From the NCBI RefSeq assembly GCF_000686525.1, contig NZ_JMKT01000010.1:124001-188000 (forward strand): 64,000 nt of DNA, read 5' to 3'. Each line of letters starts with the position of its first letter. Positions within the stretch are counted from its first letter, which is position 1. A model generated the notes under the pieces. It was not told the origin of the DNA and did no database searches. It saw only the letters and a program-made list of their open reading frames with translations. Of the stretch, positions 44,649-50,536 are shown in pieces. Both the position numbers and the translations under genes were made by a program. The stretch is from Desulfonatronovibrio hydrogenovorans DSM 9292 (lineage in GTDB: Bacteria; Desulfobacterota; Desulfovibrionia; Desulfovibrionales; Desulfonatronovibrionaceae).

Positions 44649-45806
44649 TCAGACTTGCTCAGACATGACCTCCAGGATGGACTGGGCCACCAGGGCGGCC
44701 CGCTGGGGCAAGGTTTTTTTTATGATGAACTCCTGGTCGCTGTGGTCCAGATCTCCACAGGGACCCAGTCCGTCCAGGACCGGAGTCCCCGTGGCTGCAA
44801 TAAAATTGGCGTCAGACACTCCCCCTCTGATCTCCCTGGCAATGGGGACCCCGACCTTTTGGGCTGCCCCCTCAACCAGCTGATAAAGCCTTTCCATGTT
44901 CCTGCTGGTCGGCATGGCCGGGCGGCTGGAAATGACTCTCATCTCTGTCCTGGTCCCGGGAACTCTTGTCTGCCCGGCTATCTTCCGGATCTCCTCCAGA
45001 ATGGCATCATGATTTTTCTGATCAGCAAAGCGGGCGTCAACTCCAAGGACAGCCTCCCGGGCAATGGTGTTGGGTCCGATGCCCCCCTGGACCAGACCGA
45101 CATTGACCAGGACATCCGGCGGGTGGTTCAGGGCTTCCAGGGCAATAGTCTTATGGGCCGCCTCAAGCACGGCGCTGGGCTTGTCAAGACCTGCCACTCC
45201 AGCATGTCCGGCCCTTCCAGTAACCTTGAGATCAAGACCGATCTTTCCCTTGCGACCAACAGCCACCTGCCCGTCAACTCCCCCTCCTTCAAGGACAAAT
45301 GCAGCCCTGCTTTTCCTGGCCTGCTCCTCAATAAGCACCCTGGAAAAAGGAGAACCGATTTCTTCCTCTGAATTGCAGATAAAGGTTATTGGAATATCTT
45401 CCAGCAACCCCAGCCTGGACAGGGCTTTTAAAGCAAAAAAACCCACTACCAGGCCGCCTTTCATATCCATGACCCCCGGGCCATATATCTTTTCCCGGTC
45501 CTGGCGGAAAAAATTAAAATCAGTATCCTGGGGGAAAACTGTGTCCATATGGCCAACCAGGAGAATCGGCTTACAGGTGCGGGCTTCATTATTCCAGGCC
45601 AGGACCATATTGCCGCACTCCTGCATGGAAATAATCTCCACCTGGGGAAGTATCCCGGACAGGGCCCGGAAAACAGTCCGGGCCATCCTGTCCAGCCCAG
45701 TTTTATTCATGGTGCCGCTCTGGATCAGGACCAGCTCTTCCAGCAGTTCAAGCATCTCCCCTTTCAGGAAGCTGACCTGTTCAACAATCCTTTCCCCTGA
45801 ACCCAT
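44649..45806 (-). CDS. M20-family metallopeptidase (carboxypeptidase G2-like)
   Basis: A 385-residue M20 peptidase or amidohydrolase. Zinc ligands appear in VGHMDTVFP near residue 85 and GVMDMKGGL near residue 113; the general-base Glu is in CNSEEEIGS near residue 147, and the dimerisation domain covers about 180-300. Family members remove a C-terminal glutamate or split acylated amino acids. It lies 11 bases after the aminomutase-like gene, last of the three-gene operon, and may deprotect or degrade that pathway's product. Confidence 0.88.
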   Translation of the reverse strand: MGSGERIVEQVSFLKGEMLELLEELVLIQSGTMNKTGLDRMARTVFRALSGILPQVEIISMQECGNMVLAWNNEARTCKPILLVGHMDTVFPQDTDFNFFRQDREKIYGPGVMDMKGGLVVGFFALKALSRLGLLEDIPITFICNSEEEIGSPFSRVLIEEQARKSRAAFVLEGGGVDGQVAVGRKGKIGLDLKVTGRAGHAGVAGLDKPSAVLEAAHKTIALEALNHPPDVLVNVGLVQGGIGPNTIAREAVLGVDARFADQKNHDAILEEIRKIAGQTRVPGTRTEMRVISSRPAMPTSRNMERLYQLVEGAAQKVGVPIAREIRGGVSDANFIAATGTPVLDGLGPCGDLDHSDQEFIIKKTLPQRAALVAQSILEVMSEQV

Positions 45807-45817
45807 CCTGGCCGCCT

Positions 45818-47383
45818 CTATTTATGCTTTCCCAAGGCAAAGGACTTATCAGAATATTCACCCGGATCAGCATCCGGATAGGCCACCTCTTCTCCGCTCC
45901 ATGGCTTTGTCAGTGTCAGCTCATTTCCCTTTTTTCCGGAAACATTGGAGCGATGCAGAGGAATCTTGCCACCGGCTGTAGCGATATACCTTGGAATGGC
46001 ATCCCCGGATATGTTGCCATACATGCTCTCCACAATATCCCTGCCCTTTTCCACAGGCACCCGCAGATGTGCGAACTGGGGATTCCGGTAACTGCAGTTG
46101 AACAGGTAATAAGGACGCACATAGGCCTCGTGGATGGTTTCACACAGCTTCCACATCTTGACCCTGGTATCATTGATTCCCTTTAACAGCACAGCCTGGT
46201 TCATAACCGCGCTGACTCTTTTGGATATCTGCTTGAAGGCGTCCCTGGAGACCGGAGTAATTTCCTGGGCTGTATTAATCTGAGTGACCACCCTGACCGG
46301 TTTTTTATCATTACTTTCCTCAAGAATATCCAGCAGCTCGGAATTGATCCTCTGGGGAGTGGTCACCGGAATCCTGGTGCCCAGCCGCTTCATGCGCACG
46401 TGGTCTATGGAGTCAAGCTCAACCAGCAGCTTCCTGAGCATGGTGTTGGGCAGCATAAAAGAGTCACCGCCAGTGATCAGCACATCCCGAATCCTTGAAT
46501 CCTTTCTTATGTAATCCAGGGCCTCATCATAAGCCTCATTTGAATAAATACGGTCTTTTTTGCCGATATGGGCAATGCGCAGACAATGGGTGCAGTACAT
46601 GGCGCACATGTTGGTGGCCTTGATGGTCACCACCCTGGGATAGAACTGGTCAATGAGCCGGGCCGGAGAATGATCTGCTGCCACAGGCGGAATTTCCACG
46701 CCTGTGTTGTCCACCATCTCCCCGGTGGGTACTGCCTGAAGAAGAACTGGATCTTCCAGGTTCCCGGGAATGATCAGGCCGGCATAATAAGGAGTAAGGC
46801 GCATCCGATAGTTCTTGGTCACCCGGCCCACCTCCTCCAGGGCACTGGCCGGAAGATTCAAGATCCCTCCCAGCATGTCCAGAGATTCAATGGCGAATTT
46901 CAACTGGCCTGAAAATGAATTCCAGTCATCCTCGGTCATGCCCAGGACCTGCCTGATTCTGGAATGATTCTCCCTGATTCTGTCCCAGAGCTGAATACCG
47001 CTGGGCGCTTCCAGGTCTTTCTGTTCCAGGTATCTGGCCACCCTTTCTCCAGCCTGCTCAACAATGGACAAGGCCTGATCCAGCCTGCCCCCTACACTTA
47101 CCTGGTGCTCGTCAATATCTTGGTGTCTGACAGCCAGTTTTTCCAGGTCAGGCCGGGCAATGTCAAAGTCTGCAGGCGTTAGGCCGTGGGAATCCTTGAC
47201 CTGTTTCAGCACCCTGAAAAGCTCAATAATATTTCCGGTCAAATTTTCTGCAGAGCTTTTATCAAAAAGGTCCCTGATCTTATCTGTCTCTTTTTCAGTC
47301 AACCTTCCCCTGGAACCGGTTTTTAAGTAAAGATTGTCCAGAAGCCTGTTGGTAAATTGGTCAATCATGTTTGATCCATCCAT
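45818..47383 (-). CDS. Radical-SAM aminomutase-like protein (KamA family)
   Basis: A 521-residue KamA-family protein, longer than lysine 2,3-aminomutase by a 200-residue helical N-terminus. The 4Fe-4S/SAM cysteines are C260, C264 and C267 (NMCAMYCTHC), GGD follows near 305. TAGGK near 473 takes the place of the PGGGGK motif, so K473 can carry PLP. Lysine 2,3-aminomutase holds its substrate with two Asp (293 and 330); the aligned places look like S431 and T469, so lysine is an unlikely substrate. It starts five bases after the ATP-grasp gene. Probable product: a beta-amino acid. Confidence 0.8.
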   Translation of the reverse strand: MDGSNMIDQFTNRLLDNLYLKTGSRGRLTEKETDKIRDLFDKSSAENLTGNIIELFRVLKQVKDSHGLTPADFDIARPDLEKLAVRHQDIDEHQVSVGGRLDQALSIVEQAGERVARYLEQKDLEAPSGIQLWDRIRENHSRIRQVLGMTEDDWNSFSGQLKFAIESLDMLGGILNLPASALEEVGRVTKNYRMRLTPYYAGLIIPGNLEDPVLLQAVPTGEMVDNTGVEIPPVAADHSPARLIDQFYPRVVTIKATNMCAMYCTHCLRIAHIGKKDRIYSNEAYDEALDYIRKDSRIRDVLITGGDSFMLPNTMLRKLLVELDSIDHVRMKRLGTRIPVTTPQRINSELLDILEESNDKKPVRVVTQINTAQEITPVSRDAFKQISKRVSAVMNQAVLLKGINDTRVKMWKLCETIHEAYVRPYYLFNCSYRNPQFAHLRVPVEKGRDIVESMYGNISGDAIPRYIATAGGKIPLHRSNVSGKKGNELTLTKPWSGEEVAYPDADPGEYSDKSFALGKHK

Positions 47384-47388
47384 TGTTC

Positions 47389-48783
47389 TTATTCCATGCT
47401 GGTTATAGATTCTTCAAGCAACTGCTTGCCCATCTTGATTTCCCTGTCCAGGATCTCTCTCTTCCTGGATACGGCAACCACCCTGCCCAGAAATGTTCCT
47501 GGTTTGACCGGACAGCCATGCCCCACGTGCTCCATAATGATCATTTTATACTCAACTCCATTCCGCTTGACCTGGCGAAAGAGCTCCCGCTCGTCTTCAT
47601 CTGCAGGCAGAAAGTATTTGGTCACAACCTCCCGGTCCACCTTGAAGTTGTATGTTCTCCAGTAGAGATCACTAATGGCCTCCTGGATCTCCATCTTATT
47701 TTCGGGCAGTCTGTTTTCTGTGACCGCAAAATATTCCAGTTCCATCAGAGTAGGAGCATCCTGGGGCAGCAGATTCTCCAGTGTGCAGCACATTTCCATG
47801 GTAGTCCCCTGCTTGCGGGCATTAACCTCCACAAAATAGATCCGACCGGAGTTGCTGACGATATAGTCACATCCGAAAATTCCCCTGTATCCGCTTCTGC
47901 CCAGGACACGGCCCACCATCCTGGTATGCTCTTTTATCTCCAGCTGATCCTTGTACGGCAGGACCGAAGGAAAGGTCGAGCCCCTGAACATGTTTCCGCC
48001 TTCTATTTCCTGGTCGGCAATGGCCGCAATAAAGACATCGTCCTCGTTACCCACCACTCCCAGGACCGTGGGATCATGTTCATGAGGGACGTATCTGCTG
48101 ATGAAATAAGTGGACTGAGGCAGGGGCAGCCTTGAATTCAAATCAGACATGGACCGGACAATAAAACTGTTGGTACCAGCCGCTGAATAGGGCTGGGAAA
48201 CAAAAACACCTTCGGTCCACTCTGCCAGGGCTGATGTGGTTCCCTGAACCATCTCCCCGACCCCGCTGCAGACCTTGTAGTCTATGACCGGCACAGCATC
48301 CTTAAGCATCTGCAGCTGGTAAAGCTTGTTATTCCACATGCTGGCCACCTGTCCACCCGGACCCAGAAGCACCACCCCTGGCATCCTGGTAAAGGAAAGT
48401 TCAGGCAGGGACTCAAAAACATGCACATACAGCCTGCCCTGCTTACGGACCAGCATCCGAACCAGTTCCAGGACTGTTGATGAATAGGATACCACACCGG
48501 CAAAATCTCCGGCTGACATCCTGCAGCTGAATTTCTTGCTGGTCTGAGCATAAAGGCTCCTGGCCAGGGGGTTAATGACCAGGACATTCTTATGCGGATA
48601 TGATTCCATCACATCAGGGAGGATGGAAATATAATCAAATTTCTTGTTGTGGATTCTGGCGAGATTCTCTTTGACAAACTGATTGAGAGCGTCGGTCTTG
48701 ATTTCTCCGATGTACAGAAAATAATTCGTATCATCTTCCAGCTTGAGGTCCGAAAAAAGAACATCTTCTTCATCAGAAAACAT
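47389..48783 (-). CDS. ATP-grasp ligase of the aminomutase operon
   Basis: A 464-residue protein with a biotin-carboxylase-type ATP-grasp domain at about 145-340: the pre-ATP segment KLYQLQMLKD, glycine-rich VSQPYSAAGTNSF near 195, YFISRYVPHE near 226, and IYFVEVNARKQG near 315 with Glu-x-Asn for Mg2+. The N-terminal 140 residues and C-terminal 120 residues have no clear relatives to my eye. Such enzymes form amides or peptides through an acyl phosphate. GGAGGG lies six bases before ATG 48783; a TTG eight codons earlier is less likely. First of the three-gene operon. Confidence 0.82.
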   Translation of the reverse strand: MFSDEEDVLFSDLKLEDDTNYFLYIGEIKTDALNQFVKENLARIHNKKFDYISILPDVMESYPHKNVLVINPLARSLYAQTSKKFSCRMSAGDFAGVVSYSSTVLELVRMLVRKQGRLYVHVFESLPELSFTRMPGVVLLGPGGQVASMWNNKLYQLQMLKDAVPVIDYKVCSGVGEMVQGTTSALAEWTEGVFVSQPYSAAGTNSFIVRSMSDLNSRLPLPQSTYFISRYVPHEHDPTVLGVVGNEDDVFIAAIADQEIEGGNMFRGSTFPSVLPYKDQLEIKEHTRMVGRVLGRSGYRGIFGCDYIVSNSGRIYFVEVNARKQGTTMEMCCTLENLLPQDAPTLMELEYFAVTENRLPENKMEIQEAISDLYWRTYNFKVDREVVTKYFLPADEDERELFRQVKRNGVEYKMIIMEHVGHGCPVKPGTFLGRVVAVSRKREILDREIKMGKQLLEESITSME

Positions 48784-48946
48784 GCCCAACCCTCCGGGGA
48801 TTGACAATTTTGCAAAATCCCAGCATGACGATCATACAATTTCGTCTAATGGATATGCTGAACCTGACCATCCATTCTGACATCGCTGCAATAACAAAAC
48901 AAATTCAAGCGCTTACCTTAAAAATCTACCTGTTTATCCGGCCTGC

Positions 48947-48975
48947 ATAATACCTGCAACTTAGAACCCCATCAA
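48947..48975 (-). promoter_or_regulatory. Candidate sigma-70 promoter for the ATP-grasp operon
   Basis: On the minus strand TTGATG and TATTAT are separated by exactly 17 bases. Transcription would begin near 48940. The palindrome lies five bases upstream of the -35 element. Confidence 0.5.
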
Positions 48976-48980
48976 CCATT

Positions 48981-49005
48981 CTTAAGGAGGTGACCGCTCC
49001 TTAAG
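48981..49005. promoter_or_regulatory. Perfect 25-base palindrome (candidate operator)
   Basis: CTTAAGGAG and CTCCTTAAG flank seven bases (GTGACCG). It is centred about 20 bases upstream of the -35 of the ATP-grasp promoter, where an activator commonly binds. On the plus strand it contains AAGGAGGTGA, identical to an ideal ribosome-binding site, but no usable start codon follows. Confidence 0.5.
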
Positions 49006-49162
49006 CCAGCCTCATCCCAAGCCCCTCCCCCCGTCCTGCCAGCAGGTGCAGAGCTGATTTTGCAGGACTTTTCTAAAAGACATCCTGAAATGTCAATGAA
49101 AAAAACTGCCAGCATCTCCAGTGGGACTCCTGATAGTTTCAACCCAGGCTCCTGGCCATGGT

Positions 49163-49190
49163 TTGACATGAATGAATAATTATCTATAAT
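49163..49190 (+). promoter_or_regulatory. Consensus sigma-70 promoter for the second aminomutase-like gene
   Basis: Perfect TTGACA and perfect TATAAT separated by 16 bases. This is the best sigma-70 match in the window. Start would be near 49197, giving a leader of about 220 bases. Confidence 0.75.
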
Positions 49191-49267
49191 TTACTCTGTT
49201 TATTTGCCACACCTTCAATTTTCGAGCCAGCTTCAGTTGGGAGTCGGCCAGCATGGCCGCAACACTT

Positions 49268-49286
49268 CTGGTACCAATCTGGTACC
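49268..49286. repeat. Two CTGGTACC repeats in the leader of the second aminomutase-like gene
   Basis: CTGGTACC occurs at 49268-49275 and 49279-49286, three bases apart. As GGTACC is itself palindromic, the pair reads as both direct and inverted repeat. It could bind a dimeric regulator or form a short stem in the leader. Confidence 0.5.
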
Positions 49287-49417
49287 CGGCTAAAACAGAT
49301 TAATCAGGCCATTGGTGCCATTCAAAGAAAACCAGGCAGGACCCGGAGTCTGCCCTGACTGGGACCAGGATCCTGTTCAGGCCAGCAGTCCTTAACACCT
49401 TATAATGGAGGAAAACC

Positions 49418-50536
49418 ATGAACCGTCCCAAGTACATAAATGAGATCTCCAAGGTCGGACAAATACCTGAAAAAGAACTGGAGGACCTTGCTCCGGTCAT
49501 GCAGAAATTCGAGTTCAGGTCCAATGATTATTACCTGTCCCTGATCAATTGGGATGATCCCAATGACCCCATTAAAAGAATCATTATCCCCTGCCAGGAG
49601 GAGCTCGATCAGTGGGGAAAACTGGACCCGTCCAATGAGAAAAAATATTCCAAAATGCCCGGACTTCAGCATAAATATCTGAGCACAGCCGTATTTCTGG
49701 CCAGTGACACCTGCGGGGGCTACTGCAGGTACTGCTTCCGCAAAAGGCTTTTCATTTACCCTGAACAAAGAGAAGTCCTGACTGATTACCAGGCAGCCCT
49801 AGACTATGTCCGCTCCCACCCCGAAATCAACAACGTCCTCATAACCGGGGGTGACGGACTCATGCTGTCCACAGCCAGACTGGAAGAGCTGATAAGCAGT
49901 CTGCGCACCATTAAGCATGTCAAAATCATCAGAATAGGAACCAAGCTTTTATCCTATGATCCCTACCGGGTCATCAATGATCCCGGACTGATAAAACTGG
50001 TGGAGGAATACAGTCTGCCCCACAAAAGAATCTATTTCATGCTCCATTTTTCTCATCCCAGGGAAATCACCCAGGTCAGTCTGGAAGCCTGCAACCGGCT
50101 GATCAAGGCCGGCGGTATTCTCTGCAACCAGACCCCCATGCTCCGGGGGGTAAACGACGATCCCCAGGTAATGGGAGAACTCTTCAACCAGCTTTCGTAC
50201 ATGGGAATTGCACCTTATTACATCTTTTTATGCAGACCTACAGTGGGCAACCTAACCTACGCCGTCCCAGTGGAAGAAGCCTTTCATGTCTTTCAAACGG
50301 CCAGAGGAATGTGCTCAGGGCTTGGAAAAAGAGCCAAACTGGCCATGTCCCATGCCGAGGGCAAGATTGAAGTAGTGGCCATGACTGATGAAAACATAAT
50401 TTTTCGAATCCACCGGGCCGCTGATCCCGATGACAGCGGAAAAGTTTTTATCTGCAGACGGAATCCCAGTGCCTACTGGTTTGACGACTACAGAGAAATC
50501 CTGGAAACCATCCATCATCAGGACCTGGGGTATTGA
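49418..50536 (+). CDS. Radical-SAM aminomutase-like protein, short KamA paralog
   Basis: A 372-residue KamA-family protein. Radical-SAM cysteines are C99, C103 and C106 (DTCGGYCRYCFRKR), ITGGDG lies near 143, and the PLP lysine candidate is K316 in SHAEGK, where lysine 2,3-aminomutase has PGGGGK. The two substrate-binding Asp of that enzyme align with R273 and about A309. An arginine there would favour an acidic substrate such as glutamate or aspartate; glutamate 2,3-aminomutase is known to carry a basic residue at that place. The ribosome-binding site is GGAGG seven bases ahead. Confidence 0.8.
   Translation: MNRPKYINEISKVGQIPEKELEDLAPVMQKFEFRSNDYYLSLINWDDPNDPIKRIIIPCQEELDQWGKLDPSNEKKYSKMPGLQHKYLSTAVFLASDTCGGYCRYCFRKRLFIYPEQREVLTDYQAALDYVRSHPEINNVLITGGDGLMLSTARLEELISSLRTIKHVKIIRIGTKLLSYDPYRVINDPGLIKLVEEYSLPHKRIYFMLHFSHPREITQVSLEACNRLIKAGGILCNQTPMLRGVNDDPQVMGELFNQLSYMGIAPYYIFLCRPTVGNLTYAVPVEEAFHVFQTARGMCSGLGKRAKLAMSHAEGKIEVVAMTDENIIFRIHRAADPDDSGKVFICRRNPSAYWFDDYREILETIHHQDLGY

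Follow-up and report, generated by a model that had tools for sequence, protein, structure and literature searches.

A conserved ATP-grasp ligase, KamA and M20 hydrolase operon in Desulfonatronovibrio hydrogenovorans and its candidate role in beta-amino-acid metabolism

Gene content and organisation of the locus

The locus lies within a 64,000-nucleotide stretch of DNA from Desulfonatronovibrio hydrogenovorans DSM 9292 (contig NZ_JMKT01000010.1), referred to here as the window, and consists of three minus-strand genes facing a fourth on the plus strand (Table 1). The positions, lengths and protein families originally proposed for the four open reading frames were borne out by an open reading frame check and by Pfam and NCBIfam searches, and the spacings of 5 and 11 bases within the minus-strand trio were confirmed on the sequence. 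The ligase length in Table 1 is counted from ATG; a start at an upstream TTG gives 472 aa. Together the ligase, KamA1 and M20 genes (44649-48783, minus strand) form a conserved three-gene operon. The intergenic region between ligase and KamA2 is poorly conserved, with 39% mean column identity across relatives and no Rfam match, and no regulatory RNA turned up near the operon when the window and six loci were scanned against Rfam.

Table 1. Features of the locus, in window coordinates
Feature	Position	Strand	Basis and remarks
M20 metallohydrolase, 385 aa	44649-45806	-	ORF, Pfam and NCBIfam; last gene of the operon
KamA1, radical-SAM/PLP 2,3-aminomutase-type protein, 521 aa	45818-47383	-	ORF and NCBIfam; middle gene
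ATP-grasp ligase-like protein, 464 aa	47389-48783	-	ORF and Pfam; first gene of the operon
Ligase/KamA2 divergent intergenic region	48784-49162		Presumed site of the operon promoter
Sigma-70-type promoter match, TTGACA-16-TATAAT	49163-49190	+	Upstream of KamA2; 12/12 matches
KamA2, 372 aa, divergent neighbour	49418-50536	+	Judged to lie outside the module

Conservation of the trio and placement of KamA2

Ligase, KamA and M20 genes occur in identical order and on the same strand in 26 analysed loci, and because the order recurs in this way the arrangement is not a product of chance. The gaps between the three genes mostly fall between -20 and +65 bases; values of about -80 or lower reflect start codons placed too far upstream and were not counted as overlaps. 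This arrangement extends over five families of the order to which the host belongs and reaches more distant lineages within the phylum. Among 150 genomes of the order, counted by hand, 32 carry both the ligase and the long KamA (the KamA1 type), five the ligase only and one the KamA only, a co-occurrence with a Fisher p of approximately 3e-26 that is not corrected for phylogeny. In two genomes (G135 and G685) ligase and KamA are fused into a single polypeptide of 918–922 aa, followed by M20, and ligase and M20 are co-inherited with a distance correlation of 0.92. A diverged ligase homologue with neither KamA nor M20 is present in three genomes of one genus. The proposal in the original prediction that the three genes act as one module is thus upheld by co-occurrence, fixed order and fusion: the homologues do occur together, contrary to one outcome that the prediction had weighed against itself, and no other conserved partner pathway for the ligase was found, contrary to a second. 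No ligase homologue was present in viral contigs, and among plasmids the ligase had no matches beyond Streptantibioticus cattleyicolor BesA and some distant ATP-grasp proteins. No relevant description of this gene combination was found in the literature searched.

The original prediction had also counted KamA2 as a component, so that both KamA proteins would serve one pathway. Within the family, at least six genomes do have KamA2 facing the operon. In two further genomes of that family (G395 and G420), however, it adjoins the GGDEF gene without the operon alongside, and in family f111 it is located away from the operon; some genomes carry KamA2 without the ligase, and those of f110 carry the ligase without KamA2. 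Given its own promoter match, of which a TTTGACA-type box is also present in several relatives in the intergenic alignment, its other locations in relatives and its position in a distant KamA lineage of the tree, KamA2 probably has no part in the pathway. Membership of KamA2 was rejected, and a four-gene system is considered very unlikely.

Catalytic residues and nearest relatives of the encoded proteins

Both KamA1 and KamA2 scored above the cut-offs of the Radical_SAM and KamA-family (TIGR00238) models. KamA1 retains the CxxxCxxC motif (equivalents of C125, C129 and C132), R134, the GGD motif and the PLP-binding K337, whereas the lysine-binding residues D293 and D330 are replaced by Ser and Thr. 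Lysine was rejected as the substrate on the loss of both Asp residues and the presence of a separate canonical AblA/AblB pair in the genome (G000:C11:32112-34182). Consistent with this, KamA1 is not a member of the AblA model TIGR03820, on which it scored 270 bits against a cut-off of 525.4; the true AblA of the genome scored 749.6. The separate pair implies that beta-lysine is handled apart from the operon and explains the absence of an acetyltransferase there.

The highest-scoring NCBIfam model for KamA1 was that of glutamate 2,3-aminomutase (TIGR04368, represented by Eam of Clostridioides difficile), at 324.5 bits against a cut-off of 650, compared with 232.6 for KamA2. The operon KamA proteins of two relatives approach this cut-off, with 632.5 bits at locus L026 and 604.7 for the fused KamA (L025), and in the tree the long KamA proteins cluster with the glutamate 2,3-aminomutase type (support 92/90), apart from the lysine aminomutases and KamA2. 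The signature of this enzyme, in which Lys and Asn occupy the positions of D293 and D330 of lysine 2,3-aminomutase, is missing from KamA1 with its Ser/Thr pair; L026-type proteins have Lys at the first position and Thr, not Asn, at the second. KamA1 further differs from Eam in an additional N-terminal stretch of approximately 100 aa. Because of these substitutions and a score of only half the cut-off, KamA1 in the window may act on a substrate other than glutamate or lysine.

The KamA family also takes in EpmB, and some ATP-grasp enzymes modify proteins, so a beta-amino acid made by KamA1 could in principle be destined for a protein or a RiPP-like peptide. On the EpmB model TIGR03821, however, KamA1 and KamA2 scored 175.9 and 187.8 bits, far below the cut-off of 369.3, and comparison of neighbourhoods found no conserved precursor-peptide or elongation-factor gene near the operon. 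An EpmB function, the remaining outcome set against the original prediction, was therefore rejected, and modification of a protein or peptide is regarded as the most improbable of the readings considered.

The ligase passed the gathering cut-off of ATP-grasp_3 (PF02655; 29.7 bits against 23.2), as did its L026 homologue (34.9 bits), and residues D306, E319, N321, R323 and G326 are invariant among 12 homologues. Its nearest solved relative is the glutamate ligase BesA (L-propargylglycine--L-glutamate ligase, 8yi6), with which it shares a core around GYRGIFGCDYIV and VEVNARKQG at roughly 30% identity limited to about 100 residues. It is not a member of the BesA equivalog NF042917 (29.8 bits against 750). 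The canonical ATP-binding residues of ATP-grasp ligases are an A-loop Lys, an adenine-side Glu and Mg-binding Glu/Asn. Compared by eye, the A-loop Lys and adenine-side Glu do not lie where BesA has them, so ligase activity is not certain, and structure prediction with five close homologues was too poor (pLDDT 50) to decide the matter. PGM1 is also among the closest solved ligases, and both it and BesA are enzymes of Streptomyces natural-product pathways, which would agree with a beta-amino-acid dipeptide that is exported or directed against competitors as a specialised metabolite or antimetabolite rather than retained as an osmolyte. Conservation of the trio across families and the co-inheritance of ligase and M20 argue against this, as do neighbouring genes for uptake rather than export and the lack, in the neighbourhood comparison, of any conserved resistance or regulator gene beside the operon; such a product is thus considered unlikely.

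M20 passed the Pfam cut-offs for the peptidase (98.6 bits against 24.6) and dimerisation (57.7 against 21) domains. Residues H86, D88, D114, E148, E149, E173, H355, R295 and R327 are invariant among 13 homologues, and with the di-metal ligands H86, D114, E149, E173 and H355 all retained the protein qualifies as an M20 peptidase. The closest solved relative is carboxypeptidase G2, a glutamate carboxypeptidase (profile E 2e-60), which M20 matches over its full length with the catalytic and metal residues invariant; M20 nonetheless fell below every NCBIfam cut-off among the matches listed, which include a weak match to the [LysW]-lysine hydrolase model.

This last match bears on an alternative in which M20 is biosynthetic rather than a recycler: the ligase would add a carrier or protecting group, such as a gamma-glutamyl amide, KamA1 would rearrange the protected compound, and M20 would free the beta-amino acid. 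[LysW]-lysine hydrolases follow the same logic and belong to the M20 family, the invariant order of ligase, KamA and hydrolase genes is that of the proposed reactions, BesA links glutamate to an unusual amino acid, and the altered pocket of the long KamA would be expected for a larger substrate. However, the nearly bona fide glutamate aminomutase of L026-type clusters should take free glutamate, and no carrier protein was found near the operon. This scheme is rated improbable, though less so than the other alternatives.

A candidate glutamate-based pathway

The reading we prefer, which we hold to have about an even chance of being correct, is a glutamate-based pathway that would yield a beta-amino-acid amide or dipeptide recycled by M20, and whose product would most likely be a compatible solute. 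KamA1 would act on L-glutamate, or on a glutamate substituted at the gamma position, and shift its amino group from C2 to C3. The ligase would use ATP to couple the resulting beta-amino acid to a partner, either an amine or an amino acid, and M20, as a relative of carboxypeptidase G2, would split the product for recycling. Such an amide or dipeptide with its hydrolase, as originally predicted, is consistent with the protein families, and this idea and the three-gene module are the parts of that prediction that stand, without KamA2.

Of the loci examined, 16 have a TAXI-type TRAP transporter next to the operon or close to it; the arrangement varies among them, and two lineages of binding protein are represented. 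In the genome of the window itself, the transporter is not linked to the operon. The TAXI protein VcGluP is specific for glutamate (PMC11574862), and the linked transporters of many relatives could import glutamate or the finished solute. Hosts of the operon include Desulfonatronovibrio and Desulfonatronospira, which are soda-lake genera (PMC4158274), and AblB is present in 22/37 ligase-positive genomes compared with 27/113 others (p 1e-4, uncorrected). The haloalkaliphilic nature of hosts, the TAXI-TRAP/USP genes linked to the operon and the enrichment of AblB make an osmolyte role in saline or haloalkaline habitats plausible. More tentatively, and with less confidence than the general pathway, the module may represent a new osmolyte pathway that combines a beta-glutamate dipeptide or amide, a dedicated hydrolase and TAXI-TRAP uptake, widespread in saline-adapted relatives.

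Bacterial routes to beta-glutamate and its derivatives are poorly defined. A 2005 review (PMC1224877) counted the enzymes that make beta-glutamate and neutral dipeptide osmolytes among those still unexplored. It also cited NMR evidence that excluded an aminomutase route to beta-glutamate, which weighs against the preferred reading, though the organisms were methanogens. The module offers a directly testable candidate, in which a glutamate-type aminomutase is joined to a ligase, in two genomes as one polypeptide; it would also provide a radical-SAM aminomutase with an altered substrate pocket and give a function to one group of TAXI-TRAP transporters.

Two osmolyte systems invite comparison with the operon. 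The N-acetylglutaminylglutamine amide (NAGGN) system likewise places a ligase and a peptidase around a dipeptide osmolyte; it is not known to include an aminomutase and its enzymes come from other families. The parallel is one of analogy only. The AblA/AblB pathway to N-epsilon-acetyl-beta-lysine, as in the operon, pairs a KamA-type aminomutase with a second enzyme to give a beta-amino-acid osmolyte derivative, but there the second enzyme is an acetyltransferase, whereas the operon instead has an ATP-grasp ligase and an M20 hydrolase.

Conservation of the ligase, aminomutase and hydrolase operon

The ATP-grasp ligase, KamA1 (521 aa) and M20 hydrolase genes are separated by gaps of 5 and 11 bases and face a divergent second KamA gene, KamA2 (372 aa). 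All four lie exactly at the positions, strands and spacings of the original prediction, which had joined them in one beta-amino-acid pathway, and domain searches backed their families.

Genes of the operon and its divergent neighbour within the window
Gene	Coordinates	Strand	Domain searches
ATP-grasp	48783-47389	minus	agree
KamA1	47383-45818	minus	agree
M20	45806-44649	minus	agree
KamA2	49418-50536	plus	agree

The trio is a real, operon-like module. A ligase-profile search recovered the ligase in 42 of 297 Desulfovibrionales genomes. The ligases closest to the window's own (81–84% identity) come from Desulfonatronovibrio and Desulfonatronospira MAGs, both genera of lithotrophic sulfate reducers from soda lakes (PMC4158274). 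Across 150 shared genomes, 32 possessed both ligase and long KamA (the KamA1 type), five the ligase only (fragmentary in two), one KamA only and 112 neither (Fisher p = 3e-26, shared ancestry ignored), by a hand count that takes in one genome with a split KamA and one with KamA cut at a contig end. The order ligase, KamA, M20 on a single strand was found in all retrieved loci that hold the complete trio, mostly with gaps of -20 to +65 bases. Conservation extends over five families of the order and to more distant Desulfobacterota, comprising genome G058, the class of G135, and G012 and G315, which hold ligase and KamA only. Fusion of the ligase and KamA into a single protein of 918–922 aa is seen in G135 and G685, with M20 next downstream. 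Over 26 loci, pairwise distances of the ligase correlated with those of M20 at 0.92 and of KamA at 0.68.

In G483, KamA1 is present as two adjacent ORFs of 354 and 180 aa (L101:6508-8111), reflecting either a frameshift or a sequencing error. Solitary ligase homologues with neither KamA nor M20 nearby occur in three genomes of one genus (L022:8977-10413, L023:9532-10959 and L024:7970-9397); their YSAAG loop is altered, and they have perhaps acquired a new function.

KamA2 was detected at the chosen threshold in 25 of 150 genomes of the order, faces the operon within the window's family only, and is preceded by its own perfect promoter match (49163-49190). In G395 and G420, KamA2 adjoins the GGDEF-TPR gene that in the window borders the operon at its opposite end, and the operon therefore probably ended up between these two older neighbours.

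Catalytic residues and substrate class

The best PDB match of the ligase profile was BesA (E = 9e-9), followed by PGM1 and then a peptide ligase. Invariant residues include D306, E319, N321 and R323; however, the A-loop Lys and adenine-side Glu usual in such enzymes were not found at the BesA-equivalent places, and the protein is therefore treated as a putative ligase. The M20 hydrolase matched carboxypeptidase G2 over its whole length, and its catalytic and metal residues did not vary among 13 homologues.

When aligned with lysine 2,3-aminomutase (2a5h), KamA1 retains the cluster cysteines 125, 129 and 132, Arg134 and the PLP-binding Lys337. A lysine aminomutase was rejected given that, in direct alignment, the lysine-binding Asp293 and Asp330 are replaced by Ser and Thr. 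In a second set of clusters (L026, L025, L129, L130, L133 and L134; the L026 type), the partner KamA carries Lys at position 293 and Thr at 330; two of these proteins, compared with the TIGR04368 model of glutamate 2,3-aminomutase, reached 632.5 and 604.7 bits (cut-off 650). In the Clostridioides difficile glutamate enzyme these positions hold Lys and Asn. In a tree of 30 KamA proteins, a local sample that makes the placements provisional, the long and L026 types grouped together (92/90) and were joined next by a glutamine-synthetase-adjacent KamA of the window's genome (95/95), separate from lysine aminomutases and from KamA2.

The glutamine-synthetase-adjacent KamA (357 aa), which falls in the glutamate-aminomutase part of the tree, is encoded co-directionally with the synthetase (L029:5474-8127, contig C12), a possible beta-glutamine route. 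L026-type clusters in two genomes of one genus (L025:11374-13999 and L130:1489-5438) have genes for glutamine synthetase and ammonium transporters in their vicinity. The window's genome also encodes an 827-aa protein with two tandem KamA-like radical-SAM regions (L030:6746-9229, C13) and, about 12 kb beyond the window end, a second KamA and ATP-grasp cluster (L027:8032-11903, C10) in which genes for a lysine-aminomutase-like KamA, two D-Ala-D-Ala-ligase-like ATP-grasps and a GNAT overlap or nearly so.

Linkage to a TAXI-TRAP transporter

Genes for a TRAP binding protein of the TAXI type and for a fused TRAP permease are beside or near the operon in 16 loci. They follow M20 co-directionally in families f110 and f111, with a universal stress protein (USP) gene next, are divergent from the ligase in f2, lie downstream in f109, and are about 4 kb off in L026. 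The linked binding proteins are of two kinds, 42–44% versus 65–73% identical to that of L026, and the link was therefore probably made or rebuilt more than once. VcGluP, a TAXI protein, prefers L-glutamate (PMC11574862). The closest solved relatives of the L026 binding protein are other TAXI proteins.

Elsewhere in the window's genome is a separate TAXI-TRAP-USP set, whose permease shares 73% identity with the operon-linked permease of G433. On contig C9 (L115:7541-16939), this set has GAK-system genes a few kb away, among them the gene for the GAK ATP-grasp enzyme (461 bits).

Proposed pathway and osmolyte precedents

From the family relationships of the proteins we infer a pathway in which the aminomutase would work on a glutamate-type substrate, the ligase would form an amide or peptide bond, and the hydrolase would recycle the product by hydrolysis. 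The enzyme families are known, but a literature search of partial coverage found no description of their combination, which is apparently undescribed; conservation of the trio is sufficient to merit testing.

The acetyltransferase noted as missing at the locus is accounted for by AblA and AblB, each above cut-off, on contig C11 of the window's genome. AblB is enriched with the ligase (22 of 37 genomes versus 27 of 113; uncorrected). This enrichment, the haloalkaliphilic hosts, the transporter and USP neighbours and known beta-amino-acid osmolytes prompt the speculation that the module has an osmolyte role, for which beta-glutamate, beta-glutamine and N-epsilon-acetyl-beta-lysine are the precedents (PMC1224877).
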